Positions 24,744 to 64,000 of a stretch of 64,000 bases of DNA are shown one piece after another. The notes below the pieces were generated by a model that saw only the letters and a list, made by a program, of their open reading frames with translations, was not told the DNA's origin and ran no database searches. The stretch spans positions 4,849,001 to 4,913,000 of the forward strand of contig OX387202.1 in assembly GCA_947561715.1 (NCBI GenBank), in the 5' to 3' direction. Every line of letters starts with the position of its first letter. Position 1 is the stretch's first letter. The position numbers and the translations under genes were made by a program. This stretch comes from Ascidia mentula (taxonomy: Eukaryota; Chordata; Ascidiacea; Phlebobranchia; Ascidiidae).

Positions 24744-25858
24744 ACGACGTGCGCAAAGTTGCGAGTAAGTTGCCCAATAGAATATTGGAATTTACAACGC
24801 GACACCCTTAACCGGATACCATGTAGTTGTGATCAGAATACAAAATAACAAATATTTCGTTTCTTCTCACTGATGGCGCTTCTTCAAAAACTATACGTCT
24901 GATAAAAGAAAATTACAAAAATTGCGATAATCGTAATGATAAAAAATCTACATTAGTTACTTTTTCATGTATATGCCGACTGACTGTATTGGCCTCCAGA
25001 ACACTTTTTGATGGAAAAGCGATTTATACAAAATGTCAAGTTTTGCATATTTTGTAGTTGTAATCTCACCAACTGTTTTTTTTTCAGCAGCAGAAAAGCC
25101 CGCTGTCTTGGTGCTGCCGGGAATCATATCTCCGCAAGATGGCGCAGCTGAGCAGTTTACTTGTTTGTTTTAAGTCACCCGTTTTTTCCACTTGTTTTTT
25201 TGTAAACTCTGATCGTGTTTTGCGAATGTGATTGTGACGCAAAATCAACCAAGCGTGAATTTAAACTTTACTTCGTGGTTTGTCGTAAATTTGTCGTAAA
25301 ATCAGTCGGTTCAAGATTGTCAAGTGTTGGAGTTATTTAGCATGCTGACAATTCTTCTTTTGAAGGTTATGGGACAAATTTTAGTTGTCTCATTGACTTA
25401 TTCTGATCAGTCAGGTCGTTCTCGGTATAATTTATATTCAGAAAATTTGCGTTATTTTTGGCATAATCTCAGTTTCACTAACTGATGAAAATAATTTCAA
25501 TCTTTATTTCGATTTTGTTGTCAATGCCAAATTCGCTATAGCTTACACTTCCTAGGTTAAACAACTTGCGGAATCTTGCAAAACATGTGTTTATTTTGAA
25601 AAAGAAGGAATTTTGAAATAGGCTGAAAAACTTAAACAAATCAAAACGTAACAGATAATAAGTTGTGCCATTCAGTTGATACAAAAGCAAAACAATGAAT
25701 GTTAACAACAGACAGACTGCAAATCTTCAAAGCAAACACTGCTAATAAGAAAAGTATAAACTACAGAAAAGGTTTTGTCACAGAATGGAATGAATGTGAA
25801 AAAAGGTGTCAAGACCACTAAACACATTCGAGGGATCTACCATCCTGATTACTATGAG
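24744..25858. other. CTDP1 3' region and start of the duplicated cluster
   Basis: A strong donor GCGA|GTAAGT at 24765 and an acceptor TTTTTTTTCAG ending at 25087 could delimit a 3' UTR intron of CTDP1. From about 25308 the sequence matches the left edge of the third cluster segment (59144 onward; shared TTGTCAAGTGTTGGAGTTAT), so the segmental duplication begins here. TTTATT at 25590-25595 is the likely minus-strand poly(A) signal of A1; it is kept at 42924-42929 and 59433-59438. Confidence 0.6.
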
Positions 25859-27994
25859 TTAACAGATCCGACAGCCATCACATTGTGGGTTTCCGTTCGG
25901 CAAGCAAACAAAACTACTACAGATGTTGTTTGAATATTTGCACCAAAGGTATGTTGCTCCAGCAAGTATGGAAACAACTATGATTAAGCCAAGAACAACA
26001 ACCAACAATCTTTGCCACCATTTCAATGTAAAGTATTCCTGAAAAACATAATTGCAATGAAAATATATAATTGTAAAAAAAATGTTCTCACTATCTGTTT
26101 AAGTCAGACCGCTTCTCACAACATGATCCTAAAACTGAGTTTTGGTGGTGATCTACATTTAAACACCTAGAGGCTGTTTCGCTTGCTTTTTAAAAACAAT
26201 TGGGACTTGTGACTCTTCAAGGGGGACTTGTATTGTTCAATAGATTCGTATACAGCTGCGTTACGTCAGTACCCATTTAGTTTTTTTTGGGTTCCTGGTA
26301 ATCGTGCTATTGTGGGATAAAACAGCCCCCGGGGGCTACTTCTAAAGCAGTGATTCCCAACCTTTTTGTGGTTGCGTACCACTTGGAGGTAAAACAATTT
26401 CGACGCGTACCTCCAAGCTGAGTGCTACAAAGTAACCTTGAGGATGAAGTAACGAACATTTTGAGATCACTTTACGATTTTTGTAAATTTGAACTATTTC
26501 CGCGACTTAAGGACCAGTAGTGGTACCGGTTGGGAAACACTGTACTGTGCAGAGAAGTGTTGGGACTAACATAAAATTAATTATAGTAAGACAACTATTT
26601 CTGAAGACATTACTAATGGGTATAAACTACTGTGATTCCTTTTTCCGCATATTTTACTTACATCAATGCTGTTATTTTTATCAAATTAATGTCCAACCTG
26701 CTATTAATTCGATACCAATTGCAAAAACAACATATTTTTTTACCTTCCCATCAAACTCCGTCGCCTCTCCACTGTATGATATTGTTTTCATTGTTGTTGA
26801 CGTCACTTCCTCTGTATTGTATGGCGGAGTCAAGGATATTTCCTCTTCAGTTGAATTGTTTTCAGCCCCAGTGAGATTGTGGCTTTTATCCGGATTGTTC
26901 GCATCTGTCACTTCGTATTTCTTGTTACTCTTCGTCCAATTTCGTTGATCTGCTGTTTCGTCGTGTGTCGTAAGTTCGTCTGGGCATTCTCTAAACAGAA
27001 GCAAAAATCTGGCAAAATCAAATATTAGTTTGCAATGTAGACTACGCATTTAGTATCGGAATGTTATAATTGGAAACATGCGCCAATGTTACCAACAATA
27101 CTTGAGTCTAAACATAACCATTGTAACGTAGCGCCGATCTATTCTAAATTTGCATGGATCTGAATACCACGATGTCGGCTAGCAATGTTCAAAAACATTT
27201 TTAACTTGGACGAAATAGCTTCAATTATCAGTGTATCGATGGCATTGCAAACAACAAACGTTTTCCGTCCCCGAAGATGCAGAAGCAAAATCCCTTTTTC
27301 ATTTTCTTTTGTTGCAAAATCTGTTTAAACTTGCTGCTGTTTTGTTACATTACAACATTTAACTTCTAGAAATAAAAAGCAATTCTAAATTCCTTTTGCG
27401 TCAGAAATCCCAAATACATTCTTTTTGATAAAAAACAGCATATTTACTGAATGTAAAAGAAGCATGTGTTTCTGGTGTTGGGAGCACAGTTAGTGAAACC
27501 ACGAGGGCACGGAAGACAACTGTATTTGTACCAAAACTGGTTTGCTTCACACATTCCACCTACGTATCCTCTTTCTGTTCGTATTTTTCTGAAATCGGGT
27601 ACCTGAAAAAAAAAATCTAAACCAATGGTTCTTGGCCGGTGGAAAATTTTCTACTTATAAAAGGGAAAATATAAAGTTGTAGGTGGGTAATTAGTCTGCA
27701 CCAAAATATACAAAAGTTGTTGTTATGTTTTGTATTCACTGTGTGTCATACAACTATTGGCAATTGGTCACTCAATGCCTAAACATTTTGTAAAAAGTGA
27801 GCAGATATTGCGCAAATGCAATGATGAAATTCTATGTTAAAAAACTTACCAGTGGGAAAAAAGGATTACCTTTAAATTGAAAGTGGGAAATGAGATCTAA
27901 ATGTTTAAATACGTCTTACCGCATATCCACGATGGTTATTAAGATACATGCAATAGATAAATGTTACGAGAAGCCTGACGCCTTTCACGAACAT
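25859..27994 (-). CDS. Type A single-module TNFR-like membrane protein, copy A1
   Basis: Not a family I can name. Exons in reading order: 27994-27920 (signal peptide MFVKGVRLLVTFIYCMYLNN), 27602-27448 (Cys-rich module), 26990-26744 (stalk), 26038-25859 (TM and tail). Phases 0/0-2/2-0/0 agree, giving 218 residues. The module has the spacing C-x10-C-x2-C-x6-C-x7-C-x6-C and contains SCLPCPRGFTNC, similar in style to TNFR or GCC2/GCC3 modules. The stalk (about residues 77-159) is rich in Asn, Thr and Glu with several N-glycosylation sequons (NWT, NLT, NNS). The TM is about residues 168-190 (LLVVVLGLIIVVSILAGATY). The 28-residue tail is Cys-rich (GNPQCDGCRIC). A type I receptor or ligand at the cell surface is an inference. 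The frame is open 37 codons upstream of the chosen Met, but only this Met gives a proper signal peptide. A hAT MITE sits in the last intron. Confidence 0.82.
26348..26542. mobile_element. hAT MITE in the A1 last intron
   Basis: A 195-bp element with ends CAGTGATTCCCAACC and GGTTGGGAAACACTG. The left target duplication TTCTAAAG is present; the right one is no longer recognisable. It is orthologous by position to elements in A2 and A3, so it inserted before the cluster duplicated. Confidence 0.9.
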
Positions 27995-28640
27995 CCCGAT
28001 TGAATCTGAGCTAATGATAATTACGTCCGACTGCCAACATGAACAACCCCTGTAAATTGTTAAAATAGTTTTATTTTCCCGCCAGTTTCTGAAAAATTCG
28101 GACATACAATACTTTGTATCAAATTGTTGGTTAATTTTACTTCTCGATGCAGAAATGCGTTGGACCCGAAGAATGCCGCTCTCCTGTCCGGCACAAGGTC
28201 ATAGCAATTGCTAAACACCAGCATTTCCATCACCTTATATCAGTTGTGTGGAAAGCACCAACCACGAAACCTAATGCAAATTGCCAACCAAGTCCAAAAA
28301 GAAAGCAAAGAAACAAGTTCGAACAATTAAATGAGCGGCATACGTGTTTCAGTTGCATGAGTCGGGTACTTTCGGTATTTAACCAGTTGCTTTAATTGTC
28401 AGACTCGACGCCACGCAATAGATTAACGTAAACACGTCAGAGATGAGATTTTGCATAATTGCCGATTAGTTGCGCACTGAAAAGCTACGTTATAGGAAGT
28501 GCAGGCAACACTCTCGACAAACCGCATGCGCCAAATTAGACATTTAATAACGTCACTGTTTACATTTATCGGTTAACTCGCTCAGAAACCCGTGATAACA
28601 AGACATGGACCTGTCAGTCATGTTACTTACAGAAAAACCG
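27995..28640. other. A1 5' flank with a conserved open frame on the opposite strand
   Basis: This flank, presumably the A promoter, is strongly conserved in all three A segments. It contains a plus-strand frame of 82 codons (28147-28395, starting MQKCVGPEECRSP and ending LSVFNQLL) that is open in every copy. Its minus-strand complement encodes a hydrophobic stretch (NLFLC..FGLGWQFALGFVVG). Neither reading has a recognised domain. It could be a small divergent gene, an alternative first exon of A, or just conserved promoter DNA. Confidence 0.4.
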
Positions 28641-28993
28641 TCTTTTTCTTCACCGGCTGTCGTACTGACGTATCGACACGGGAGCAATGTTAACAAAGTT
28701 TGGTTTTATAAAAAAAATCGCCGCGATAAGAAATACTGGCAACCATATTTTGAAATGCAATAACCATAGACAACACCAACATTTATGTATATTAGAATGA
28801 TCGTCTTGTGGTAAGAAGTTCAAGAAATAACAAGTGACAACACGTAAAACACAAACGATAACTTTTGGCAGCAAAGTAGGCACAGTAAATGGAATCCCTT
28901 TCCAACTTTCCTTAAAGTTATTGCCTAAAGTAAAAACCCCAACACTTGAAATCATCATACAGTGGTTGCATGGTATTCAGGATTCTGAATAAC

Positions 28994-29883
28994 CTATTCT
29001 TCCCCATGTAGGAAAGGTTGACCTGCTTCTGGTGGTTCCAAACGTTGATCTGCTTCTGGTTGTGCCAAACGCCTTTCACCAGGGTGATACCCTGAAAGAC
29101 TTAAGCACTTACGTCGATGTTTATAAATAAGGAAAATCGCTGCTGTGGCGAGAAGTATTACCACGATCACAATCACCCAGATATACCATTTGATTTCCTG
29201 CAGTAAAAAAAGTTTGAATTATGTAGTTGTGACAAATGTTGTTCCCAGAGATAATGTTTAAAGCAAGTGAAATAATGAAACATATTTAGCGCCTTTTTGC
29301 CATTTTCTAGCATAAATGTGGCCGCTTTTTTGGACCCTCACTGTATTGCAGTTTTGAACGATTCTGGCTTTGTTGTATTTCCATCATCTGTACTTACATT
29401 GTGATTGTTGTGTTGAGGTTGATGGGTGGTATTTTTCTCGTGGGTGGTGTTGTTTGTTGACTCATCACGACATTCACTGCATAAAAATTGCACACCATTT
29501 TAAACAACGGCAACTTTGATATGTACACTTGAAGCGCAGATTTTTCATGCCTTTGCCATACAATGCCAACACTGCGTCAATACGATGCTAACATTAGGTT
29601 AATATTCAGCTAAATTAGCTTATTTTTTGCAGATGCACAAACCTTAATTTTGAGAATAAACATGACTAAAAAAAATTGTTTTTTGTTACTGGAAAACTAC
29701 TGGGAGAAAAGTTAAATTTCAGAAATACACTCACCTCGGTTCATAATAACAAGTGTCACATGTGTTGTTGTAACAGTTGGTAAGATGTGGTTGACACTTT
29801 TCACAAACTTTATTGTTCAAAAACTCATCCGGTTTGCAAAATCCTTTTTCTAAGCCATGTTCAGTTTGTATCCATGATGGATT
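28994..29883 (-). pseudogene. Type B receptor-like gene B1, broken
   Basis: Exons in reading order: Cys-rich module 29883-29735 (NPSWIQTEHGLEKGFC..., spacing C-x10-C-x2-C-x6-C-x4-C-x2-C-x7-C), stalk 29476-29342, TM plus tail 29197-28994 (TM WVIVIVVILLATAAIFLIY, tail CLSLSGYHPGERR and only two repeat units). Three defects are visible. The signal exon (remnant near 29942-30012) has lost its donor and its start codon. The stalk is one base shorter than its sisters, so it no longer joins the TM exon in frame. The tail stops at TAG (28994-28996), with VIQNPEYHATTV and a stop following in the same frame. It could still supply a second module to B2 transcripts, but the phases do not fit. The host gene family is the same as B2 to B8. 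Confidence 0.7.
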
Positions 29884-29997
29884 CTAAATCACCAAAACAT
29901 ATGTTTAAACTTGAAGATGCAAAATATGTTATGCTACAATGGACAATCGCACAAAAACCACAAACGAGCAAAAGGCACCAATCGCAATATCATCCGA

Positions 29998-30869
29998 TTA
30001 TCCACTCTTACGTTGTATTTGTTGAGTTGGACCCTTATACCGCATAATATAGTTATTATGCGGTATATCTTTGGCTGGTGTTGAAGCAGAAGTTGACGCC
30101 GTGATGTTGTTTGTCGCAGTGTTGTTGTTTTCTGTATCAACAGTCGAACCATTGTCGGAATTGGTGGAGTTGCTGTTTTGAACGCTTTCTGGTTTTGTTG
30201 TGTTTCGATCATCTGTACTTAGATTGTGATGGTTGTGTTCAGGTACCAGCTCTCCATGATGGGTGGTATTTTTTTCGTGGCTGATGTTGTTTGTTGACTC
30301 ATTACGACATTCACTGCATAAAAATTGCACAAAACGCACAACAGTTAAACAACGGCAACTATGATATGTACACTTGAAGCGCAGATTTTGCAATCATTTG
30401 CCATAAAATGCCAACATTGCGTCAATACGATGCTAACATTAGGTTAGCATTGAGCTAAATTAGCTTATTTTTTGCAGATGCGCAAACGTTAATCTTAAAA
30501 CTATAAAAAATTAGTTTTGTGTTACCGGAAACTACTAGGAGAAAAGTTTAATTTCAGAAATACACTCACCTCGGTTTATAATAGCAAGTGTGACATGTGT
30601 TGTTGTAACAGTTGGTGTGATCTGTTTTACACTTTTCACAAACTTTATTTGGCAAAAATTCGTCCGGTTTGCAGAATCCTTTTTCTAAGCCTTGTTTAGT
30701 TTGTATCCATGATGGATTCTAAATCACCAAACATATGTTTAAACTTGAAGATGCAAAATATGTTATGCTACAATGGACTTACCTGAAAACAACCTTGTAC
30801 TGGAGGACAATCGCACAAAAACCACAAACGAGCAAAAGACACCAGCAGCATCCAATGATAAACTCTCAT
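29998..30869 (-). CDS. Type B gene B2, predicted secreted module plus stalk
   Basis: Exons: 30869-30783 (signal peptide MRVYHWMLLVSFARLWFLCD), 30718-30570 (Cys-rich module with KPDEFLPNKVCEKCKTDHTN), 30313-29998 (stalk to stop). Phases agree, giving 183 residues. The stalk is long, Asn/Thr/His-rich and full of sequons (NIS, NTT, NLS, NST, NIT). The TM/tail exon that should follow is missing: next to the stalk lies the broken signal exon of B1. The donor used by B5 (ATA|GTAAGG) has been replaced by a palindrome at 30037-30066. Read through, the frame ends 18 codons past PHN. So the gene as it stands encodes a soluble glycoprotein, unless an unseen splice is used. Whether it is expressed is unknown. 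Confidence 0.6.
30037..30066. repeat. Perfect 13-bp inverted repeat at the B2/B1 junction
   Basis: The arms ATACCGCATAATA and TATTATGCGGTAT are separated by TAGT. Only the right arm exists in the sister gene B5, where it is stalk-end sequence, so the left arm was added by a fold-back or template-switch event at the breakpoint that removed the TM exon. Confidence 0.9.
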
Positions 30870-31680: not shown

Positions 31681-31950
31681 GCAATGTTAACACAATATGG
31701 TCTTGTATTAAAAATTGCCGCGATTAGAAATACTGGCAACCATATTTTAAAATGCAATAACCATAGACAACAACATCATTTATATATATTAGAATGATTG
31801 TCTTCTGGTAAAAAGTAAAGAAATAACTAGTGTCAACACGTAAAATACAGAAATTAACTCGTTGCAGCAAAGTAGGCACAGTAAATGGAATCCCTTTCCA
31901 ACTTTCATTAACGTTATTGCCTAAAGTAAGAACCCCAAAACTTCAAATCA

Positions 31951-32040
31951 TCATACAGTGGTTGCATGGTATTCGGGATTCTGAATGTCCTCTTCTTCTC
32001 CATGTAGGGAAGGTTGTTCCTCATCGGTTGAACGTTGATC
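31951..32040 (-). pseudogene. C-terminal end of an orphan type B tail (B3)
   Basis: Reads, in the frame used by B5, RSTDEEQPSLHGEEEDIQNP and then EYHATTV-stop (stop 31951-31953). This is the best-kept version of the family C-terminus, with an NPEY motif (NPxY type, known to bind PTB domains or clathrin adaptors) and a terminal TTV (class I PDZ ligand type). No TM exon lies upstream before 37.5 kb; only repeat arrays and stalk/intron fragments do. Confidence 0.7.
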
Positions 32041-35000
32041 TACTTCTGCTGGTGGCAAACGTTGACCTGCTTCTGGTGGTGGCAAAAGTTGACCTGCTGC
32101 TGCTGGTGGCAAAGGTTACCTGCTTCTGTTGGTGGCAAACTTTGACCTGCTTCAGCTTGTGAAAAAATTTGACCTGCTTCTGGTGGGGGCAAACGTTGTT
32201 CTTCTTCTGTTGGTGACAAATGTTGACCTGCATCTGCTGGCGGAAAACAATGACCTGATTCTAGTGGGGCAAACGTTGATCTTCTCCTGCTGATGGCAAA
32301 CGTTGACCTGCTTCTGCTGATGGCAAACGTTGACCTGCTTCTGCTGTTGGCAAACGTTGACCTGCTTCTGCTGGTGGCAAACGTTGACCTGCTTCTGCTG
32401 TTGGCAAACGTTGACCTGCTTCTGCTGGTGGCAAACGTTGACCTGCTTCTGCTGGTGGCAAACGTTGACCTGCTTCTGCTGTTGGCAAACGTTGACCTGG
32501 TTCCGATGGGGCAAACGTGGATATTCTTCTGCTGGTGGAAAACGTTGACCTGCTTCTGCTGTTGGCAAACGTTGACCTGCTTCTGCTGGTGGCAAACGTT
32601 GACCTGCTTCTGCTGGTGGCAAACGTTGACCTGCTTCTGCTGGTGGCAAACGTTGACCTGCTTCTGCTGTTGGCAAACGTTGACCTGGTTCGGATGGGGC
32701 AAACGTGGATATTCTTCTGCTGGTGGAAAACGTTGACCTGCTACTGCTGGTGGCAAACGTTGACCTGCTTCTGCTGGTGGCAAACTTTGACCTGCTTCAG
32801 CTTGTGAAAAAATTTGACCTGCTTCTGCTGGGGGCAAACGTTGTTCTTCTTCTGTTGGTGACAAATGTTGACCTGCATCTGCTGGCGGAAAACAATGACC
32901 TGATTCTAGTGGGGCAAACGTTGATCTTCTTCTGCTGATGGCAAACGTTGACCTGGTTCTGCTGATGGCAAACGTTGACCTGCTTCTGCTGGTGGCAAAC
33001 GTTGACCTGCTTCTGCTGATGGCAAACGTTGACCTGCTTCTGCTGGTGGCAAACGTTGACCTGCTTCTGCTGGTGGCAAAAGTTGACCTGCTTCTGCTGT
33101 TGGCAAACGTTGACCTGGTTCGGATGGGGCAAACGTGGATATTCTTCTGCTGGTGGAAAACGTTGACCTGCTACTGCTTGTGGAAAAAATTGACCTTCTT
33201 CTGCTGGTGGAAAACGTTGATGTTCTTCTGCTGGTGGCAAAAGTTGACCTGCTTCTGGTGGTTGCAAACGTTGACCTGCTTCTGGTGGTGGCAAACGATG
33301 ACCTGCTTCTGCTAGTGACAAAAGTTGACCTGCTTCTGGTTGAACGTTGATCTACTTCTGCTGGTGACAAACTTTGACCTGCTTCTGCTGGTGGCATACG
33401 TTACCTGCTTCTGCTGGTGGCAAACGTTACCTGCTTCTGCTGGTGACAAACGTTGATCTTCTTCTGCTGATGGCAAACGTTAACCTGCTTCTGCTGTTGG
33501 CAAACGTTGACCTGCTTCTGCTGTTGGCATACGTTGACCTGCTTCTGCCGATGGCAAACGTTGACCTGCTTCTGCTGTTGGCATACGTTGACCTGCTTCT
33601 GCTGTTGGCATACGTTGACCTGCTTCTGGTGGTGGCAAACGTTGAAGTTCTTCTGCTGGTGGCAAAAGTTGACCTGCTTCTGGTGGTTGCAAAGGTTGAC
33701 CTGCTTCTGGTGGTGGCAAACGATGACCTGCTTCTGCTAGTGACAAAAGTTGACCTGCTTCTGGTTGAACGTTGATCTACTTCTGCTGGTGACAAACTTT
33801 GACCTGCTTCTGCTGGTGGCATACGTTACCTGCTTCTGCTGGTGGCAAACGTTGACCTGCTTCTGCTGTTGGCATACGTTGACCTGCTTCTGCTGTTGGA
33901 AAACGTTGACCTGCTTCTGCTGTTGGCATACGTTGACCTGCTTCTGCCGATGGCAAACGTTGACCTGCTTCTGCTGTTGGCATACGTTGACCTGCTTCTG
34001 CTGTTGGCATACGTTGACCTGCTTCTGCTGGTGGCAAACGTTGAAGTTCTTCTGCTGGTGGCAAAAGTTGACCTGCTTCTGGTGGTTGCAAAGGTTGACC
34101 TGCTTCTGGTGGTGGCAAACGATGACCTGCTTCTGCTAGTGACAAAAGTTGACCTGCTTCTGGTTGAACGTTGATCTACTTCTGCTGGTGACAAACTTTG
34201 ACCTGCTTCTGCTGGTGGCATACGTTACCTGCTTCTGCTGGTGACAAACGTTGATCTTCTTCTGCCGTTGGCATACGTTGACCTGCTTCTGCCGATGGCA
34301 AACGTTGACCTGCTTCTGCTGTTGGCATATGTTGACCTGCTTCTGCCGTTGGCATACGTTGACCTGCTTCTGCTGGTGGCAAACGTTGATCTTCTTCTGC
34401 TGGTGGCAAACGTTGACCTGCTTCTGCCGTTGGCATACGTTGACCTGCTTCTGCAGTTGGCATACGTTGACCTGCTTCTGCCGTTGGCATACGTTGACCT
34501 GCTTCTGCTGGTGGCAAACGTTGATCTTCTTCTGCTGGTGGCAAACGTTGACCTGCTTCTGCTGTTGGCAAACGTTGACCTGGTTCGGATGGGGCAAAAG
34601 TGGTTATTCTTCTGCTGGTGGAAAACGTTGACCTGCTACTGCTTGTGGAAAAAATTGACCTTCTTTTGCTGGTGGAAAACGTTGATGTTCTTCTGCTTGT
34701 GGAAAACTTTAACCTGGTTCTGGTGGTGGCAAACGATGACCTGCTTCTGCTAGTGAGAAAAGTTGACCTGCTTCTGGTGGTGGAAAACATTGACCTGCTT
34801 CTACTGGTGGCAAACGTTGACCTGGTTCGGGTGGGGCAAACGTGGATATTCATCTGCTGGTGGAAAACGTTGACCTGCTACTGCTTGTGGAAAAAAAGAC
34901 CTTCTTCTGTGGTGGAAAACGTTGATGTTCTTCTGCCAGTCGCTAAAGTTGACCAGCTTCTGCTTGTGGAAAACTTTGACCTGCTTCTGGTGGTGGCAAA

Positions 35001-35130
35001 CGATGACCTGCTTCTGCTAGTGACAAAAGTTGACCTGCTTCTGGTGGTGGAAAACATTGACCTGCTTCTACTGGTGGCAAAGGTTACCTGCTTCTGCTGA
35101 TGTCAAATGTTGATCTTCTTCTGCTGGTCT
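32036..35130 (-). repeat. Tail minisatellite array 1 (27-bp unit, about 115 units)
   Basis: Degenerate 27-bp repeat. The coding-strand consensus CGTTTGCCACCAGCAGAAGC-AGGTCAA encodes the 9-residue unit RLPPAEAGQ in the frame shared with the B1 and B5 tails. Variants alternate EAGQ with EEDQ or EEHQ and PPA with PTA or PSA. Larger repeats of about 400-420 bp are visible (for example GAACGTTGATCTACTTCTGC at about 33345, 33765 and 34165). Many units are one base short or long (the CGTTTGCCCCATCCGAACC type), so the frame changes repeatedly, yet no minus-strand frame acquires stops quickly. Confidence 0.93.
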
Positions 35131-35311
35131 TTCTCCTTTCTGTAGGGTTATACCAAAATGAAGTTGGTTTGTGTTAAGAAGTGGTGAAGGCAAAAGCGTA
35201 TTCCAAAAACAAACAAGTTTGACACTTATATTTGCCGATTTCGACCCTTAATGTATTGCTGTTTTGAACGATATCATGTTTTGTTTTGTTTTGTTTATCT
35301 GTTGATGTGAT
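35131..35311 (-). pseudogene. Stalk-end plus intron fragment inside the tail arrays
   Basis: Array units run directly into the last part of a type B stalk exon (GATATCGTTCAAAACAGCAA type), its donor region and the start of its intron (ACCCTACAGAAAGG), and then into the next array. The same fragment recurs at about 36126-36305 and 36731-36905. These are recombination products, not functional exons as far as can be seen. Confidence 0.75.
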
Positions 35312-36125
35312 GTTGATCTTCTTCAGCTGGTGACAAATGTTGACCTGCTTCTGCTGGTGGAAAACGTTTATCTTCTTCTGCTAGTGGCAAAAGGTGACCT
35401 GATTCTGTTTGTGGAAAACGTTGACCTGCTTCTACTGGTGGCAAAAGTTGACCTGCTTCTGGTGGTGTGAAGCCTTGACCTGCTTCTGGTGGTTGCAAAC
35501 GTTGATCTTCTTCTGGTGGTGGCAGGCGTTGACCTGTTTCTGCTGGTGACAAACGTTGATCTTCTTCAGCTGATGGCAAACGTTGACCTGCTTCTGCTGT
35601 TGGCAAACGTTGACCTGCTTCTGCTGTTGGCATACGTTGACCTGCTTCTGCTGTTGGCAAACGTTGACCTGCTTCTGCCGTTGGCATACCTTGACATGCT
35701 TCTGCTGGTGGCAAACGTTGATCTTCTTCTGCTGGTGGCAAACGTTGACCTGCTTCTGCTGTTGGCAAACGTTGACCTGCTTCTACTGGTGGCAAAGTTT
35801 ACCTGCTTCTGCTGATGGCAAGTGTTGATCTTCTTCTGCTGATGACAAATGTTGACCTGCTTCTGCTGGTGGAAAACGTTGATCTTCTTTTGCTAGTGGA
35901 AAAAGTTGACCTGCTTCTGGTGGTGGCAAACGTTGACCTGCTTCTGGTGGTGGGAAGCGTTGATCCCAGTCTGCTTGTGGAGATCGTTTGTGACAAACGA
36001 TGATCTGCTTCTGTTCGTGACATAAGTTGACATGCTTCTGCTGGTGGAAAACATTGACCTGCTTCTACTGGTGGCAGAGGTTACCTGCTTCTGCTGAAGG
36101 CAAATGTTGATCTTCATCTGCTGGT
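35312..36125 (-). repeat. Tail minisatellite array 2 (about 30 units)
   Basis: The same 27-bp unit as array 1, joined at its right end to a stalk/intron fragment. In the EAGQ frame an uninterrupted run of about 55 units' worth of residues is not reached; frame changes occur at shortened units. Confidence 0.9.
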
Positions 36126-36305
36126 CTTTCTCCTTTCTGTAGGGTTATACCAAGATGAAGTTGGTTTGTGTTAAGAAGTGGTGAAGGCAAAAGCGTATTC
36201 CAAAAACAAACAAGTTTGACACTTATATTTGCCGATTTGGACCCTTACTGTATTGCTGTTTTGAACGATATCAGGGTTTGTTGTATTTCTCTGTTGATCT
36301 GATGT
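36126..36305 (-). pseudogene. Second stalk-end plus intron fragment
   Basis: Nearly identical to the fragments at 35131-35311 and 36731-36905: the intron start (TTGGTTTGTGTTAAGAAGTG on plus), then the stalk end with its ACA|GTAAGG donor, then fusion to repeat units. Array plus fragment therefore forms a higher-order repeat of about 600-1000 bp. Confidence 0.75.
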
Positions 36306-36725
36306 TGATCTTTTTCTGCTAGTGGCAAAAGTTGACCTGATTTTGCTTGTGGAAAACGATGACCTGCTTCTGGTGGTGGCAAACGTTGATCTTTTTTGGT
36401 GGTGGCAAACGTTGACCTGATTCTGCTGGTGGCAAAAGTTGACCTGCTTCTGGTGGTGGCAAACGTTGACCTGCTTCTGCTTGTTGAAAACGTTGACCTG
36501 CTTCTGGTGGTGGCAAACGTTGATCTTTTTTGGTGGTGGCAAACGTTGACCTGATTCTGCTGGTGGCAAAAGTTGACCTGCTTCTGGTGGTGGCAAACGT
36601 TGACCTGCTTCTGCTTGTGGAAAACGATGACCTGCTTCTGGTGGTGGCAAACGTTGACCTGCTTCTACTGGTGGCAGAGGTTACCTGCTTCTGCTGGTGG
36701 CAAATGTTGATCTTCTTCTGCTGGT
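36306..36725 (-). repeat. Tail minisatellite array 3 (about 15 units)
   Basis: 27-bp units of the RLPPPEAGQ type, flanked on both sides by stalk/intron fragments. Confidence 0.9.
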
Positions 36726-36905
36726 CTTTATCCTTTCTGTAGGGTCATACCAAGGTGAAGTTGGTTTGTGTTAAGAAGTTGTGAAGGCAAAAGCGTATTC
36801 CAAAAACAAACAAGTTTGACACTTATATTTGCCGATTTGGACCCTTACTGTATTGCTGTTTTGAACGATATCAGGGTTTGTTGTATTTCTCTGTTGATCT
36901 GATGT
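36726..36905 (-). pseudogene. Third stalk-end plus intron fragment
   Basis: The same structure as the two fragments to its left. On the minus strand it reads in from array 4 through GAAGATCAACATCAGATCAA into stalk sequence. Confidence 0.75.
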
Positions 36906-37215
36906 TGATCTTCTTCTGCTAGTGACAAATGTTGACCTGCTTCTGGTGGTGGCAAACGTTGATCTTCTTCTGGTGGTGGCAAACGTTGACCTGATTCTGC
37001 TGGTGGCAAGCGTTGACCTGTGTTGGCAAACAATGACCTGCTTCTGCTGGTGGCAAACTTTGACCTGCTTCTGGTGGTGGGAATCGTTGACCTGTTTCTG
37101 CTTGTGGAGAACGTTGACCTGCTTTTGGTGGTTCCAAACGTTACCTGCTTCTACTGGAGACAAACGTTGATCTTCTTGTGCTGGTGGCAAACGTGGTCCT
37201 ACTTCTGCTTGTGGA
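36906..37215 (-). repeat. Tail minisatellite array 4 (about 11 units)
   Basis: 27-bp units. At its right edge it abuts the 3' UTR of the B4 tail exon (AAAGTTATTGTTAAATG), which marks a duplication breakpoint. Confidence 0.88.
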
Positions 37216-37232
37216 AAACCTTGTAGTCCCTT

Positions 37233-37565
37233 TCAGCATATATTAAAGTTATTGTTAAATGTAACAACCCCAACACTTGAAATCATCTTACAGTGGTTGC
37301 ATTGTATTCGGGATTTTGAATAAACATTTTTTTCCCCATGTAGGAAAAGTTTTCCGTCATGGGGTAAACGTTGACTTGTTTCTGCTTGTTGCAAATGTTG
37401 ATCTGCTTCTGCTTGCGGCAAACGCGTTTTTCCAGGGTAATGCCGTGAAATACTTAAGCACGGATGTCGACGTAGAAACTTGAGGAATTTCATTGTTGCT
37501 GCTGGGGCGAATAGTCTGACCACGATCGCAAAGACCACAATCACCTCGTTAGACCATTTGTTTTC
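37233..37565 (-). pseudogene. B4 transmembrane/tail exon, cut off from its gene
   Basis: Acceptor CAG at 37566-37568, then a TM-like stretch (VIVVFAIVVRLFAPAATMKF), CLSISRHYPGKTRLPQ, about two repeat units, and LFLHGEK. From there the frame differs from the family C-terminus, so the ending is not NPEY-HATTV but runs on to 37233. The exon begins in the family phase (0), but the B4 stalk stops before reaching it. Confidence 0.65.
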
Positions 37566-37715
37566 CTGCTGAAAAAAATGTTTGAATTATATTGTTGAGA
37601 CAAATTTTGCTCTACATAAAGATAATGTTTAAATCAAGCAGAAAAAGCAAACATTCCTGTGTAAATGTAGCCGCTTTTATGTAAACAGCCCGGTGATTTT
37701 GTCTTTCTCCTTTGT

Positions 37716-37925
37716 CTTCTTCTGGTGGTGTGAAGCGTTGACCCGCGTCTGCTTGTGGAGAACGTTGACCTGCTTCTGGTGGTGGCAAACGATGATCTGC
37801 TTCTGTTCGTGACAAAAGTTGACATGCTTCTGCTGGTGGAAAACATTGACCTGCTTCTACTGGTGGCAGAGGTTACCTGCTTCTGCTGCTGGCAAATGTT
37901 GATCTTCTTCTGCTGGTCTTTCTCC
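37716..37925 (-). repeat. Tail minisatellite fragment (array 5) inside the B4 intron
   Basis: About seven 27-bp units lie in the intron between the B4 stalk (38.1 kb) and its TM exon (37.5 kb), at the point where B5 has plain intron. This shows the tail repeat was copied into an upstream intron. Confidence 0.85.
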
Positions 37926-38120
37926 TTTCTGTAGGGTTATACCAAGATGAAGTTGGTTTGTGTTCAGAAGTCGTGAAGGCAAAATCGTATTCCAAAAACA
38001 AACAAGTTTGACACTTATATTTGCCGATTTGGACCCTTACTGTATTGCTGTTTCGAACGATATCAGATTTTGTTGTATTTCCATCATCTGTGCTTACATT
38101 GTGATGGTTGTGTTCAGGTT

Positions 38121-38749
38121 TCAGCTCTCCTTAAAGGGTGGTTTTTTTCTCGTGGGTGGAGTTGTTGACTCATTACGACATTCACTACATAAAAGTTTCA
38201 CAACAGTTAAACAACGGCAACTATGATATGTACACTTGAAGGTAGATTTTGCAATCATTTGTCATACAATGCCAACACTGCGTCAATACGATGCTAACAT
38301 TAGGTTAACATTGAGCTTAATTAGCTTGTTTTTGCAGATGCACAAACGTTAATTTTGAGAATAAATGTGACTAAAAAAAATTGTTTTTTGGTACTGGAAA
38401 ACTACTGCGAGAAAAGTTAAATTTCAGAGATATGCTTACCTCGGTACGTAATAACAAGTGTGACATGCGTGGTTGTAACAGTTGGTAAGATGTGGTTGAC
38501 ACTTTTCACAAACTTTATTGTTCAAAAATTCGTCCGGTTTGCAAAATCCTTTTTCTAAGCCATGTTCAGTTTGTATCCATGATGGATTCTAAATCATCTA
38601 AATCACCAAAACATATGTTTAAACTTGAAGATGCAAAATATGTTATGCTACAATGGACTTACCTGAAAACAACCTTGTATTGGAGGACAATCGCACAAAA
38701 ACCACAAACTAGCCAAATACACCAGCACCAACCAAAAATCCACTCTCAT
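38121..38749 (-). CDS. Type B gene B4, short secreted form
   Basis: Exons: 38749-38663 (signal peptide MRVDFWLVLVYLASLWFLCD), 38588-38440 (Cys-rich module, CQPHLTNCYNHACHTCYY), 38184-38121 (stalk start ECRNESTTPPTRKKPP, then stop). Phases agree, giving 99 residues. Compared with B1, B2 and B5 the stalk has a 4-base gap after TCAACA, which changes the frame and ends the protein 20 codons into the exon. The predicted product is a small soluble Cys-rich protein with no membrane anchor. B7 shares the gap. This is either an early pseudogene stage or a decoy-like secreted variant; the sequence cannot decide. Confidence 0.6.
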
Positions 38750-43193: not shown

Positions 43194-45384
43194 TTAACAG
43201 ATCCGACAGCCATCACATTGTGAGTTTCCGTTCGGCAAGCAAACTAAACGTCCACTGGTGTTGTTTGAATATTTGCACCAAAGGTATGTTGCTCCAGCAA
43301 GTATGGAAACGACTACGATTAAGCCAAGAATAACAACCAACAATCTTTGCCACCATTTCAATGTAAAGTATTCCTGAAAAACATAATTGCAATGAAAATA
43401 TATAATTGTTATAAAAATGTTCTCACTGTCTGTTTAAATCAGACCGCTTCTTACAACATAATCCTAAAACTGAGTTTGGTGGTGAGCTGCATTTAAACAC
43501 TTAGACACCTAGATGCTGTTTCGCTTGCTTTCTAAAAACAATTGGGACTTGTGACTCTTGTAGTGGGACTTGTATTGCTCAATAGATTTGTTTGCAGCCG
43601 CATGAAGTCAGCACCCATTTAGTTTTCTTGGGGTTCCTGGTAATCGTGCTATTAAAGGATAAAACAGCCCCGGGGCTAATTCTAAAGCAGTGATTCCCAA
43701 CCTTTTTGTTGTTGCGTACCACTTGGAGGTAAAACAATTTCGACGCGTACCACCAAGCTGAGTGCTACAAAGTAACCTAGGGGTCGAAGTGGCGAACATT
43801 TTGAAATCACTTTACGATTTTTGTAAATTCGAACTATTTCCGCGACTTACGGAAAGGTGCTCGCGTATCACTTGGAATACCGGTAGTGGTATCGGTTGGG
43901 AAACACTGTTCTAAAGACTGTGCAGAAAAGTGTTAGGACTAACATAAAATTAATAATGGTAAGACAACTATTTCTGAAGACATTACCATAGGGTATAAAC
44001 TACTGTGATTCCTTTTCTCGAATATTTAACTTACATCCATGCTGTTATTTTTATCAAATTAATGTCCAACCTGCTATTAATTCAATAACAATTGCAAAAA
44101 CAACATATTTTTTCACCTTCTCGTCAAACTCCGTCGCCTCTCCATTGTATGATATTGTTTTCATTGTTGATGACGTCACTTCCTTTGTATTGTATGGCGG
44201 AGTTAAGAATATTTCCTCTTCAGTTGAATTGTTTTCAGTCTTAGTTAGATTTTGGCTTTTATCAAGGTGGTTCGCATTTGTCACTTCGTATTTCTTGTTA
44301 CTCTTCGTCCAATTTCGTTGATCTGCTTTTTCGTGGTGTGTCGTAAGTTCGTCTGGGCATTCTCTAAACAGAAGCAAAAATCTGGCAAAATCGTATATTA
44401 GTTTGCAAGTAGACTACGCATGTAGTATCGGAATGTTGTAATTGGAAACATGCGCCAATGTTACCAACAATACTTGAGTCTAAACATAACCATTGTGACG
44501 TAGCGCCGATCTATTTAAAATTTGCATGGATCTGAATACCATGATGCCGTCTATCAATGTTCAAAAACATTTTTTAATTGGACGAAATAGGTTCAATTAT
44601 CAGTGTATTCATGGCATTGCAAACAACAAACGTTTTCCGTCCCCGAAGATGCAAAAGCAAAATCCCTTTTTCATTTTTTTTTGTTGCAAAATCTGTTTAA
44701 ACTTGCTGCTGTTTTGTTACATTACAACATTTAACTTCTAGAAATAAAAAGCAATTCTAAATTCCTTTTGCGTCAGAAATCCCAAATACATTCTTTTTGA
44801 TAAAAAACGGCATATTTACTGAATGTAAAAGAAGCATGTGTTTCTGGTGTTAGGAGCACAGTTAGTGAAACCACGAGGGCACGGAAGGCAACTGTATTGG
44901 TACCAAAACTGCTTTGCTTCACACATTCCACCTACGTATCCTCTTTCTGTTCGTATTTTTCTGAAATCGGGTACCTGAAAAAAAATAATCTAAACCAATG
45001 GTTCTTGGGCGTTGAAATATTTTCTACTTGTTGGGAAAATATAAAGTTGTTGGTCGGTAATTAGTCTGCACCAAAATATACAAAAGTAGTTGTTATGTTT
45101 TGTATTCACTGTGTGTCATACAACTATTGGCAATCGGTCACTCAATGCCTAAACATTTTGTAAAAAGTGTTAAAAAACTTTCCATTGGGAAAAAAGGATT
45201 CCCTTTAAATTGAAAGTTGGAAATGAGAGAATAAAGGGTTGAAAATCACTCACAATATAAAAATTACTTCCTACTTTCAGAAAGATCTAAATGATAAAAT
45301 ACGTCTTACCGCATATCCACGATGGCTATTTAGATACATGCAATAGATAAATATTACGAGGAGACTGACGCCTTTCACGAACAT
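43194..45384 (-). CDS. Type A single-module TNFR-like membrane protein, copy A2
   Basis: Exons: 45384-45310 (signal peptide MFVKGVSLLVIFIYCMYLNS), 44974-44820 (Cys-rich module), 44363-44117 (stalk), 43373-43194 (TM and tail). Every exon has exactly the same length as in A1 and A3 (75, 155, 247, 180), giving 218 residues. Differences from A1 are mostly single substitutions (for example CEAKQFWYQYSC for CEANQFWYKYSC, and NNTSGRLVCLP for NNICSSFVCLP in the tail). All module cysteines and the TM are kept, which argues for selection against loss. The tail difference removes one cysteine. The role is unknown; see A1. Confidence 0.82.
43688..43908. mobile_element. hAT MITE in the A2 last intron (most complete copy)
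   Basis: 221 bp, from CAGTGATTCCCAACC to GGTTGGGAAACACTG. A perfect 8-bp target-site duplication TTCTAAAG lies on both sides (43680-43687 and 43909-43916). Confidence 0.95.
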
Positions 45385-46539: not shown

Positions 46540-48068
46540 TTATACAGTGGTTGCATGGTATTGGGGGCTTTGAATAAGCTCTTCTTCTCCATGTAGCAAC
46601 GGTTCTTCCTCATCGGTTGAACGTTGATCTTCTTCTGGTGGTGGCAAATGTTGACCTGCTTCTGGTGGTGGCAAAAGTTGATGCTCTTCTGGTGGTGCCA
46701 AAGGTTGACCTGCTTCTGCTGGTGCCTCAAGTTGATCTTCTTCTGGTGGTGCCAAAGGTTGACCTGCTTCTGCTGGTGCCTCAAGTTGATCTTCTTCTGG
46801 TGGTGCCAAAGGTTGATCTACTTCTGCTTGCTGTGGCAAACGTAGACCTGCTTCTTGTGCCAAACCCCTTTCACCAGGGTAATGCCCTGAAATACTTAAG
46901 CACCGACGTCGACGTTTAAAAATGAGGAAAATTATTGCTGCTGCTGCTGCTACTGCGGCGAGGAGTATTGCCACGAGCGCCCAGAAATACCACGGCATGG
47001 TTTCCTGCAGTAAAAAAATGTTTGAGTTAGTTTTGACAAATTTTGTTCTGCCATTTTTCTGAAAAATGTAGGCGCTTTTTTGTCAACAGATCGGTGATTG
47101 TGTCTTTCTCCGTTCTGTAGGGCCATACCAAGATGAAGTTGGCTTTTGTTAAGAAGTGGTTGAGGCAAAAGCGTATTCGAAATACAAACAAGTTCAAAAC
47201 TTATATTTGCCGAGTTGGACCCTTACTATATTATGCGGTATATCTTTGGCTGGTGTTGAAGCAGAAGTTGACGCCGTGATGTTGTTTGTCGCAGTGTTGT
47301 TGTTTTCTGTATCAACAGTCGAACCATTGTCGGGATTGGTGGAGTAGCTGTTTTGAACGCTTTCTGGTTTTGTTGTGTTTCGATCATCTGTACTTAGATG
47401 GTGATGGTTGTGTTCAGGTACCAGCTCTCCTTGGTTGGTGGTATTTTTTTCGTGGCTGATGTTGTTTGTTGAGTCATTATGACATTCACTGTCCAAAAAT
47501 TGCACAAAAAGCACAACAATTAAACAACGGCAAATTTGATGTATAAACTGGAAGCGTAGATTTTGCAATCATTTGCCATAAAATGCCAACAATGCGTCAA
47601 TACGATGCTCAACATCAAGTTAACATTGAGCTAAATTAGCTTATTTTTTGCAGATGCACAAACGTTAATTTTTTTGAAATAAATGTGACTAAAAAAACTT
47701 AGTTTTTTGTTACTGGAAAACTAATGGGAGAAAAGTTAAATTTCAGAGATGCACTCACCTCAGATAATGATAACAAGTGTGACATGTGTTGTTGTAACAG
47801 TTGGTGTGATCTGCTTTACACTTTTTACAAACGTTATTTATCAAAAATTCGTCCGGTTTGCAGAATCCTTTTTCTAAGCCTTGTTTAGTTTGTATCCATG
47901 ATGGATTCTAAATCAACAAAACATATGTTTAAACTTAAAGATGCAAAATATGTTATGCTACAATGGACTTACCTGAAAACAACCTTGTATTGGAGAACAA
48001 TTGCACAAACACCACAAACTAGCCAAAGACACCAGCAGTATCATCCGATAATCCACTCTTCCACTCAT
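46540..48068 (-). CDS. Type B membrane protein with repeat tail, B5 (intact)
   Basis: The reference member of type B. Exons: 48068-47973 (signal peptide MSGRVDYRMILLVSLASLWC), 47907-47759 (Cys-rich module: CKPDEFLINNVCKKC, then NCYNNTCHTC), 47488-47227 (stalk), 47004-46540 (TM and tail). Phases agree, giving 323 residues. The stalk (83-169) is Asn/Thr/His-rich with many sequons. The TM is about 174-198 (ALVAILLAAVAAAAAIIFLI), followed by KRRRR as the stop-transfer signal. The cytoplasmic tail has CLSISGHYPGERG, then about eight 9-residue repeats (EAGQPLAPP alternating with EEDQLEAPA), acidic and Pro/Gln-rich, and ends LIQSPQYHATTV. SPQY replaces NPEY, and TTV fits a class I PDZ ligand. A 41-bp tandem duplication spans the start codon. 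Interpretation as a signalling or adaptor-binding receptor is inference. Confidence 0.82.
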
Positions 48069-52625: not shown

Positions 52626-53069
52626 AAACGATAATGTTTAAATCAAGCAGAAAAAGGAAACATTCCTGTGTAAATGTAGCCGCTTTTATGTAAACAGCCC
52701 GGTGATTTTGTCTTTCTCCTTTCTGTAGGGTTATACCAAGGTGAAGTTGGTTTGTGTTAAGAAGTCGTGAAGACAAAAGCGTATTCCAAAAACAAACAAG
52801 TTTGACAATTTTATTTGCCGATTTGGAGCCTTACTGTATTGCTGTTTTGAACGATATCAGGTTTTGTTGTATTTCTCTGTTGATCCGATGTTGATCTTCT
52901 TCTGCTGGTGACAAATGTTGACCTGCTTCTGCTGGTGGCAAATGTTGATCTTCATCTGCTGGTCTTTCTCCTTTCTGTAGGGTTATACCAAGGTGAAGTC
53001 GGTTTGTGTTAAGAAGTTGTGAAGGCAAAAGCGTATTCCAAAAACAAACAAGTTTAAAACTTATATTTG
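52626..53069 (-). pseudogene. Intron/stalk fragments and a three-unit repeat between B6 and B7
   Basis: Order on plus: intron piece (52626-52820), stalk-end fragment with donor (about 52821-52885), three repeat units (about 52893-52965), and intron start (52966-53069). This is the same modular fusion seen between arrays 1-4. Confidence 0.7.
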
Positions 53070-53139
53070 CCGATTTGGACACTTACTGTATTGCTGTTTC
53101 GAACGATATCAGATTTTGTTGTATTTCCATCATCTGTGC

Positions 53140-53786
53140 TTACATTGTGATGGTTGTGTTCAGGTACCTGCTCTCCTTAAAGGGTGGTATTTTTCTCGTG
53201 GGTGGAGTTGTTGACTCATTACGACATTTACTGCATAAAAGTTTCACAACAGTTAGACAACGGCAACTATGATATGTACACTTGAAGCGTAGATTTTGCA
53301 ATAATTTGTCATACAATGCCAACACTGCGTCAATACGATGCTAACATTAGGTTAACATTGAGCCTAATTAGCTTGTTTTTGCAGGTGTCAAACGTTAATC
53401 TTGAACTAAACATTACTATGAAAACATAGTTTTTTGTTACTGGAAAAATACTGCGAGAAAAGTTAAATTTCAGAGATATGCTTACCTCGGTACGTAATAA
53501 CAAATGTGACATGTGTTGTTGTAACAGTTGGTAAGATGTGGTTGACACTTTTCACAAACTTTGTTGTTCAAAAATATGTCCGGTTTGCAAAATCCTTTTT
53601 CTAAGCCATGCTCAGTTTGTATCCATGATGGATTCTAAATCACCAAAACATATGTTTAAACTTGAAGATGCAAAATATGTTATGCTACAATGAACTTACC
53701 TGAAAACAACCTTGTATTGGAGGACAAACGCACAAAAACCACAAACTAGCCAAATACACCAGCACCAACCAAAAATCCACTCTCAT
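53140..53786 (-). CDS. Type B gene B7, short secreted form
   Basis: Exons: 53786-53700 (signal peptide MRVDFWLVLVYLASLWFLCV), 53634-53486 (Cys-rich module; KPDIFLNNKVCEKC and NTCHICYYVP), 53230-53140 (stalk start, KCRNESTTPPTRKIPP, ending LNTTITM-stop). Phases agree, giving 108 residues. It shares with B4 the 4-base gap in the stalk, so the two derive from one truncated ancestor by segmental duplication. The module is complete apart from conservative changes. There is no TM. The product would be secreted if the gene is expressed. Confidence 0.6.
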
Positions 53787-57330: not shown

Positions 57331-57389
57331 ACGCAAAGTTTAAGAGGTGAATTTTACCGCGTTCATTCGGCGGTATTTGTGGTGGCTTG

Positions 57390-59701: not shown

Positions 59702-61698
59702 TTAACAGATCCGACAGCCATCACATTGTGAGTTTCCGTTCGGCAAGCAAACAAAACGTCCACTGGTGTTGTTTGAATATTTGCACCAAAGGTATGTTGC
59801 TCCAGCAAGTAAGGAAACGACTACGATGAAGCCAAGAACAACAACCAACAGTCTTTGCCACCATTTCAATGTAGAGTTTTCCTGAAAAACATAATTGCAA
59901 TGAAAATATATAATTGTTATAAAAATGTTCTCACTGTCTGTTTAAATCAGACCGCTTCTTACAAAATGATCCTAAAACTGAGTTTGGTGGTGATCTGCAT
60001 TTAAACACTTAGACACCTAGAGGCTGTTTCGCTTGCTTTCTAAAAACAATTGAGACTTGTGACTCTTCAAGGGGGACTTGTATTGCTCAATAGATTTGTT
60101 TGCAGTCGCATGAAGTCAGCACCCATTTAGTTTTTTTGGGGTTCCTGGTAATCGTGCTATTGAGGGATAAAACAGCCCCGGGGGATAATTCTAAAGCAGT
60201 GATTCCCAACCTTTTTGTGGTTGCGTACCACTTGGAGGTAAAACAATTTCGACGCGTACCACCAAGCTGAGTGTTACAAAGTAACCTAAGGGATGAAGTA
60301 ACGAACATTTTGAGATCACTTTACGATTTTTGTAAATATGAACCATATCCGCAACTTACGGAAAGGTATTCGCTGTTATTGAAATCAATGCTGTTATTTT
60401 TATCAAATTAATGTCCAACCTGCTATTAGTCCAATAACAATTACAAAAACAACATATTTTTTCACCTTTTCATCAAACTCCGTCGCCTCTCCACTGTATG
60501 ATATTGTTTTCATTGTTGTTGACGTCGCTTCCTCTGTATTGTATGGCGGAGTTAAGAATATTTCCTCTTCAGTTGAATTGTTTTCAGCCCCAGTGAGATT
60601 GTGGCTTTTATCAAGGTGGTTCGCATTTGTCACTTCGTATTTCTTGTTACTCTTTGTCCAATTTCGTTGATCTGCTGTTTCGTCGTGTGTCGTAAGTTCG
60701 TCTGGGCATTCTCTAAACAGAAGCAAAAATCTGGCAGAATCGCATATTAGTTTGCAAAGAAGACTACGCATATAGCATTGGAATGTTGTAATTGGAAACA
60801 TGCGCCAATGTTACCAACAATACTTGAGTCTAAACATAACCATTGTGACGTAGCGCCGATCTATTCTAAATTTGCATGGATCTGAATACCACGATGTCGG
60901 CTATCAATGTTCAAAAACATTTTTAAGTTGGACGAAATAGCTTCAATTATCAGTGTATTGATGGGATTGCAAACAACAAACGTTTTGCACCCCGAAAATG
61001 CAAAAGCAAAATCCCTTTTTCATTTTCTTTTGTTGCAAAATCTGCTGTTTTGTTACATTCCAACATTTAACTTCAAGAAAAAACTAGCAATTCCAAATTA
61101 TTTTTGCGTCAGAAATCCCAAATACATTCTTTTTGAGAAAAACGGCATATTTACTGAATGTAAAAGAAGCACGTGTTTCTGGTGTTAGGAGCACAGTTAG
61201 TGAAACCACGAGGACACGGAAGGCAACTGTATTTGTACCAAAACTGCTTTGCTTCACACATTCCACCTACGTATCCGCTTTCTGTTCGTATTTTTCTGAA
61301 ATCAGGTACCTGAAAAAAAATAATCTAAACCAATCGTTCTTGACCGGTGGAAAATTTCCTACTAGTTGGGAAAATATAAAGTTGTAGGTGGGTAATTAGT
61401 CTGCACCAAAATATACAAAAGTTGTTGTTATGTTTTGTATTCACTGTGTTTCAAACAACTATTGGCAATTGGTCACTTAATGCCTAAAAATTTAAAAAAG
61501 TGAGCAGATATTGCGCAAATGCAATGATGAAATTCTATGTTAAAAAACTTACCAGTGGGAAAAAAAGGATTTCCTTCAAATTGAAAGTGGGAAATGAGAT
61601 CTAAATGTTTAAATACGTCTTACCGCATATCCACGATGGTTATTAAGATAAATGCAATAGATAAATATTACGAGGAGCCTGACGCCTTTCACGAACAT
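59702..61698 (-). CDS. Type A single-module TNFR-like membrane protein, copy A3
   Basis: Exons: 61698-61624 (signal peptide MFVKGVRLLVIFIYCIYLNN), 61309-61155 (Cys-rich module), 60712-60466 (stalk), 59881-59702 (TM and tail). Exon lengths equal those of A1 and A2, giving 218 residues. The module and its cysteines are unchanged (MCEAKQFWYKYSCLPC). The TM exon starts ENSTLKWW, creating a new sequon next to the membrane. The tail is like A2 (NNTSGRFVCLP). The poly(A) signal is at 59433-59438. The role is unknown; see A1. Confidence 0.82.
60197..60375. mobile_element. hAT MITE in the A3 last intron, right end lost
   Basis: The left end CAGTGATTCCCAACC and left flank TTCTAAAG are as in A2. The right terminus and adjacent intron are deleted (junction near 60375). 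Confidence 0.85.
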
Positions 61699-62875: not shown

Positions 62876-63956
62876 TCATGGTGGCGGGGCCTGAAGATGC
62901 TCTTGTTCCTCGGTTGACAAATGCTCCTCACCTTGTTTCTGCCTTCGTCCATATAAACAAACAATCCCTATTAGAATTGCAACCGGAGCCAGGACAAAAA
63001 ATACCACGGCCACTATGACACCGATGTCCGTCTTGTTTTGCTGTTAAACAAATATTTCAATCTTAAACTCGTAAAACGGAAATACCAAAAAAGTAACTTT
63101 AAAAATTGAAAATTTGGGATCTAACAGAAACTGCAGATACAAGCCTAGCGATCACTGTGACTTTCGTAGTAATACCAAAAAAAGAAGTAGGTTTTTACTA
63201 CAGGATCAGCCTGGCTATCTTGCATATTGACAACAACGTGGGCCGCATAATCTGTGTTATTTGTCGCAGTTTGGTTGGTTTCTACATTAACAGTTGAAGC
63301 ATTTTCGGGATTGGTGAAATTGCTGATTTGAACGATTTCTGGTTTTGTTGTATTGCCATCGTCTGTAGTTTGATTGTGTTGGCTGTCTTTGGGTACCAGC
63401 TCTCCTGTATGGGTGATATTATGTTCATGACCGGTGTTGTCTGTTGCCTCATTAGAACATCGGCTGCATAAAAATTCAAGCATGATTGCCATTGTTAAAT
63501 AGCGGTATGTTTGAGTGAATACGATGCTAACACTGGATTAACATTGATCCAAGATTGTTTTTTGTAGATGCACACACGTTAATATTGATACTAAACGTGA
63601 CTAAGAAAACTTTTTTTGTTACTGGAAAACTACTGGGAGAAAAGTTAAATTTCAGAGATACACTTACCTCGGTTCATAATAACAAGTGTGACATGTGTTG
63701 TTGTAACAGTTGGTAAGATGTGGTTGACACTTTTTACAAACGTTATTTATCAAAAATTCGTCCGGTTTGCAAAATCCTTTTTTTAAGCCTTGTTCAGTTT
63801 GTATCCATAATGGATTCTAAATCATCAAAACATATGTTTAATCTTGAAGATGCAAAATATTTTATGCTAAAATGGACTTACCTGAAAACAACCTTGTATT
63901 GGAGAACAATTGCACAAACACCAGAAACTAGCCAAAGACACCAGTCGCAGTATCAT
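62876..63956 (-). CDS. Type B membrane protein without tail repeats, B8
   Basis: Exons: 63956-63882 (signal peptide MILRLVSLASFWCLCNCSPI), 63816-63668 (Cys-rich module, GFCKPDEFLINNVCKKC), 63463-63202 (stalk, 262 nt as in B5; sequons NIT, NQT, NTT, NFT, NAS), 63040-62876 (TM and tail). Phases agree, giving 216 residues. The TM is about 168-192 (GVIVAVVFFVLAPVAILIGI), followed by YGRRQKQ. The tail is only about 24 residues (GEEHLSTEEQEHLQAPPP) with no 9-residue repeat and no HATTV end. An upstream in-frame start used by B5 is lost (ATG to ATA), so the next ATG is chosen. The stalk donor is the weak GTAGTA. It may represent the pre-expansion tail state or a separate branch. Confidence 0.8.
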
Positions 63957-64000
63957 CCGATAATCCACTCTTATGTTCAAAGTGTTAGCTTTCATTATTT

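Follow-up and report, generated by a model that had tools for sequence, protein, structure and literature searches.

A tandem cluster of genes for single-module, cysteine-rich membrane proteins in the ascidian Ascidia mentula

Two related gene types form a cluster

We analysed a stretch of 64,000 nucleotides from the ascidian Ascidia mentula (hereafter the window; contig OX387202.1, positions 4,849,001 to 4,913,000 of the forward strand), which lies on what is most likely chromosome 6 (C70:4849001-4913000 in our contig labels). From 25.9 to 64.0 kb of the window, the minus strand carries genes of two related types, called here A and B (Table 1). Both types follow a common four-exon plan (signal peptide, cysteine module, stalk, and transmembrane segment with tail) and have the same intron phases: exon 1 ends in phase 0, exon 2 runs from phase 0 to 2, exon 3 from 2 to 0, and exon 4 starts in phase 0. 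Models with four exons and GT-AG introns on this strand are open from Met to stop in five genes (A1, A3, B1, B2 and B3). Together with the 21 related module exons found genome-wide, they confirm the cluster of paralogous A and B genes, the exon plan and the phases that a first-pass annotation of this DNA had proposed. That annotation spoke of membrane and secreted proteins. A strongly hydrophobic segment of 20 residues is found near the C-terminus in all five intact genes (mean hydropathy 2.6-3.2), so the term "secreted" is unsupported, no secreted member being evident in the window.

The remaining A copies are damaged or rearranged. In A2 and A4, which are probably pseudogenes, exons 1 and 2 are open, but exon 3 has lost the same 4 bp in both when compared with the other A copies. 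A5 combines two A copies in a chimera: the donor of its first stalk is broken by a short inverted duplication, yet the phases of its first two exons, its short stalk and its transmembrane exon are compatible. At this donor (30037-30066) there are perfect 13-base inverted arms around a 4-base loop, which looks like a template-switch event.

Table 1. Features of the window, by position in the 64,000-nucleotide stretch.
Feature	Position	Strand	Description
A1	62876..63995	-	Intact A-type; exons 63995-63882, 63816-63668, 63463-63199, 63040-62876; 230 residues
B1	59702..61698	-	Intact B-type; exons 61698-61624, 61309-61155, 60712-60466, 59881-59702; 218 residues
A2	53087..53786	-	Decayed A; minisatellite downstream
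A3	46540..48068	-	Intact A; 323 residues; long acidic Pro-rich tail with in-frame 9-residue repeats (46623-46864)
B2	43194..45384	-	Intact B; 218 residues
A4	37300..38749	-	Decayed A; last exon degraded (read by eye)
A5	28994..30869	-	Chimeric A with two module and two stalk exons; exon 1 30869-30783; module 30718-30570; stalk with rearranged donor from 30313 downwards; second module 29883-29735; short stalk 29476-29398; transmembrane/tail exon 29197-28994
B3	25859..27994	-	Intact B; 218 residues
27-bp minisatellite stretches	within 32031..37917	-	Resemble the repeated A tail exon
27-bp minisatellite	50548-52630, 52888-52963	-	Downstream of A2
Fragment of a long-terminal-repeat-type element	57575-58504	-	Between B1 and A2; Integrase_H2C2 E 3.5e-8, weak rve
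NIF-type phosphatase exon	18336-18740	+	Conserved gene flanking the cluster
PIH1 domain protein	13861-14775	-	Conserved gene flanking the cluster
45-bp tandem repeat	1648-2176		11.8 copies, 99% matches, several frames open

Copying within the cluster and across the genome

In a self-comparison of the window, the B region occurs three times at 87-94% identity and the decayed-A region twice at 92%, while the module-bearing A segments are related at 76-91%. Equivalent genes are spaced by 15.0-17.4 kb from start to start (in gene-model coordinates). From this spacing and the self-comparison we conclude that the repeat unit is a segment of about 15-17 kb holding A, B and a decayed A, which was copied and later rearranged. 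The two types lie on one strand, as first described, but do not simply alternate. The 27-bp minisatellites resemble the 9-residue repeat of the A3 tail. In A3 the repeat is coding and in frame; next to the decayed A copies it has grown to arrays of kilobases. None of the stretches outside A3 keeps one frame open over its full length.

We searched this one 195.8-Mb genome with five single modules (A, B, one from chromosome 5, one from chromosome 3, and the one at C70:4987672) and found three loci, which together hold at least 21 module exons, none of them with an internal stop. Eleven are on C70, in the window or at most 75 kb from it (six A-type, three B, one at 4970404 and one at 4987672), two on chromosome 3 (C52) and eight on chromosome 5 (C69); the window itself holds nine (six A, three B) and the rest of the genome 12. 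These counts are lower bounds, and all 21 modules were recovered only with the C70:4987672 query, the other four finding 14, 15, 15 and 20 places. A 22nd place given by that query (L076, C73:87408-87713) was rejected: by eye, it is a Ly6/uPAR-like cysteine-rich frame unrelated to the family. In the chromosome-3 genes (L015 and L016, at C52:19.21 Mb), the frame of the stalk is not that of the transmembrane exon and continues to a hydrophobic C-terminus without a basic tail, possibly of the glycosylphosphatidylinositol type; their intron 3 seems, by eye, to be lost. Repeated stalk-like exons lie downstream of chromosome-5 modules (L079, L080), suggesting duplication of the stalk exon.

A module with six core cysteines

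The module has the pattern C-x10/12-C-x2-C-x6-C-x7-C-x6-C, with the sixth cysteine encoded in exon 3, across the phase-2 intron. The C-x10-C-x2-C-x6-C core given at first is present but incomplete, as the pattern continues with -x7-C-x6-C and the first spacing may be x10 or x12. We aligned 15 of the 21 modules with the start of exon 3, leaving out A2 and five chromosome-5 modules. All 15 share the six core cysteines, and the columns without variation read G, G, C, C, C, N, C, C and C. Of the six modules outside the alignment, A2 and four from chromosome 5 also have the exon-3 cysteine at its expected place; no exon 3 was found for C69:15396867.

Additional cysteines distinguish some members. 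The A modules have one before the fifth core cysteine (C5) and another at the end of exon 1 (GCFQ), and the C70:4987672 gene and C69:15365617 have one after C4 and one in the part encoded by exon 1. The B genes, the chromosome-3 genes and the C70:4970404 gene are without extra module cysteines, and the single cysteine that their exon 1 encodes falls within the likely signal peptide or at its end. The joint occurrence of the two extra cysteines points to an optional fourth disulfide in A, the C70:4987672 gene and C69:15365617, although the cleavage sites are judged by eye, A has three more cysteines near its cleavage region, and seven other C69 genes have the extra module cysteine but no settled exon 1.

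Stalks, selection and the rival explanations they bear on

The stalks are rich in Asn, Thr and Ser and carry sequons. Their number is above that of shuffled sequences in two of the five stalks tested (seven in A1, P 0.007; five in C69:15362334, P 0.003), the excess being weak in A3 (P 0.09) and B1 (P 0.08) and absent in the C70:4970404 gene (P 0.27). The single-module ectodomain, the sequon-bearing stalk, the changes in copy number and the variable tails of the original description are all supported.

The two gene types differ in the selection on their modules, as estimated roughly with Nei-Gojobori counts (half of the pairwise sums, no transition bias). The B module is constrained: about three of eight changes are non-synonymous (P 0.010 against neutrality), with the rest of B (stalk, signal, tail) near-neutral (P 0.26). 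The A module has no detectable constraint, since 16 of 19 changes among A1, A3 and A5 are non-synonymous when the expected fraction is 0.82 (P 1.0); it is near-neutral and not above neutrality. The counts of A and B modules differ (Fisher P 0.027). Among the six chromosome-5 modules, dN (the non-synonymous rate) is of the order of dS (the synonymous rate) in many of the 15 pairs. In four A modules there are 16 variable positions, four of them in the C3-C4 loop and four between C5 and C6.

These results bear on two explanations. The proteins could be structural or mucin-like surface glycoproteins of the tunic, follicle or an epithelial coat, with the stalk as the working part and the cysteine module as a cap. 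The composition of the stalks, the sequon excess in A1 and C69:15362334, and the near-neutral stalk, signal and tail of B are in line with such a role, but the constrained part of B is the module and not the stalk, and three chromosome-5 genes have similar tail ends (see below); we consider it quite unlikely. Alternatively, the genes could encode clustered recognition receptors for self/non-self or microbes, where A diversifies, B is the constant partner and the tails are incidental. The tandem copies with turnover (repeated B and decayed-A regions, decayed and chimeric copies) resemble such clusters, and the absence of detectable constraint in the A module while that of B is constrained fits this idea without showing it, as do the variable A sites in the C3-C4 loop and between C5 and C6. 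On the other hand, A does not evolve above neutrality, and none of the five intact window genes has a Yxx[LIV] motif after its transmembrane segment. We regard this explanation as unlikely, and a recognition function of the cluster, raised in the first-pass annotation, as something that may at most be inferred. The fuhc and fester genes are tunicate immune or recognition genes. Other tunicate surface or secreted proteins, some of them variable, are the VCBPs, with immunoglobulin and chitin-binding domains, and the complement-receptor-like vCRL1, as described in parts of a review of tunicate immunity (PMC5465252); these descriptions set them apart from the present family by their domains.

Tails and comparison with known families

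The tails of four of the eight chromosome-5 genes, assigned to modules by position, could be read. Three end in PIQEENL, PIQEENL and SKQEENL and the fourth (C69:15365617) in RRRYEML. The pattern [PSAT]x[QE]E is a general motif of the type bound by TRAF adaptors. It is present in five of the 12 tails examined: once in each of the PIQEENL, PIQEENL and SKQEENL tails (P 0.061, 0.032 and 0.048 against shuffles) and five times in A3 (P 0.039), with P 0.325 in the A1 tail, these tails not being independent and the motif having been picked after looking. The three chromosome-5 ends resemble the TRAF-recruiting PIQEE of OX40. According to a passage of PMC12536988, OX40 recruits TRAF2, 3 and 5 through this motif.

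Sequence comparisons place the family in no named group, in agreement with the earlier claim. Neither the three full proteins nor the 13 modules compared with Pfam had a relevant match. The tumour necrosis factor receptor (TNFR) repeat TNFR_c6 (PF00020) matched none of these at E<=10, and no death domain was found in the three full proteins. In the genome, the TNFR_c6 profile matches four places at E<=0.01, none in the family loci, and Ephrin_rec_like (GCC2/GCC3, PF07699), which had no Pfam match in the family proteins or modules, has 30 matches at this threshold, all elsewhere. Sequence searches of PDB with two profiles and five single modules gave no credible match. One chromosome-3 module has TNFRSF11B as its sole match at E<=10 (E 0.52). 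We found no description of such a family in the open-access literature searched.

Fold comparisons were made with two structure models of low confidence (mean pLDDT 65-68), called B-first and A-first. The B-first model gave Foldseek matches to cysteine-rich domains (CRDs) of TNFR and Eph receptors at E 0.66-4.6. Among 50 of its 142 rows, many of which are chains of the same few proteins, 18 are TNFR (4-1BB, CD40, OX40, HVEM), 17 Eph receptors, 11 mGlu, CaSR or other G-protein-coupled receptors (GPCRs), three EGFR and one thyroglobulin. The likeness to TNFR_c6 lies in being a cysteine-rich receptor module with such rows, and that to Ephrin_rec_like in the rows to EphA2/A4 CRDs. The C-x10-C-x2-CP-x-G start of the B, chromosome-3 and C70:4987672 modules is like the spacing of PF07699, the second half of which differs from that of the module here.

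Several results weigh against a TNFR-like receptor, in addition to the dependence among the tail statistics. The A-first model has no resemblance to TNFR or Eph-type folds in Foldseek. An hhalign comparison of the family with four TNFR repeats of this genome scored 10.7, which is at chance: 28 of 100 column shuffles that kept the cysteines and 19 of 100 full shuffles scored at least as high. Finally, other modules match unrelated PDB proteins as weakly as TNFRSF11B or more strongly. The label "TNFR-like" given to the module at first is therefore plausible but weak: the B-first model does resemble CRDs of TNFR, Eph and class-C GPCRs, but the A-first model and the profile comparison do not bear it out. 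We do not claim membership of the TNFR superfamily, because the sequence test failed and the low-confidence fold models are split. True, very divergent members by descent would account for the B-first matches, the TNFRSF11B match and the TRAF-like tails, but they are without support from sequence profiles and the C3-x6-C4-x7-C5 spacing is unlike that of the TNFR repeats that we read elsewhere in the genome, which makes such descent improbable.

Proposed function

The explanation that we favour tentatively, and hold to be somewhat short of probable, is that these are single-module receptors working like single-CRD TNFRs. The family, which has expanded in this genome, would consist of type I membrane glycoproteins. 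Once the signal is cleaved off, each would expose one compact module, the six core cysteines forming three disulfides, probably with a fourth in A and in the genes C70:4987672 and C69:15365617. The stalk would hold the module off the membrane, followed by one transmembrane helix and a tail that varies by subfamily. Binding of a protein ligand is the most likely role of the module. The chromosome-5 subfamily, and perhaps A, would most likely signal via TRAF adaptors recruited by the short tail motifs, and B, with its short cysteine-rich tail and conserved module, would more likely be a non-signalling partner or decoy.

There is a precedent for such a receptor with very poor sequence homology. 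Passages of PMC8024323 describe fly Grindelwald (Grnd) as a receptor with a single CRD, a transmembrane segment and a Traf2-binding region inside the cell, whose sequence homology with other TNFRs is very poor. Like Fn14, BCMA and BAFFR, it has one short cysteine-rich extracellular module, but its C-x3-C / C-x3-C helical module differs in cysteine spacing from the one described here. In contrast to single-CRD TNF receptors, the present family has a sequon-bearing stalk, tandem clusters, a TRAF-type motif in a minority of tails and no sequence match to them. The treatment of Ciona TNF receptors in passages of the tunicate immunity review is in general terms (PMC5465252).

In a bolder form of this proposal, which we hold to be doubtful, these clustered receptors with a single module would make up a new class, perhaps found in tunicates alone, that independently evolved a TNFR-like job. 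It would combine a six-cysteine head, an optional fourth disulfide and a sequon stalk with OX40-type TRAF tails (chromosome 5) or an expandable TRAF-like repeat (A3), and B would be the constrained non-signalling partner.

If these proteins are receptors, they would show how a non-vertebrate chordate assembles minimal TNFR-like molecules into a multigene set, possibly with signalling and non-signalling partners in tandem. They would also provide a defined list of targets for the study of tunicate surface proteins in immune or gamete recognition.

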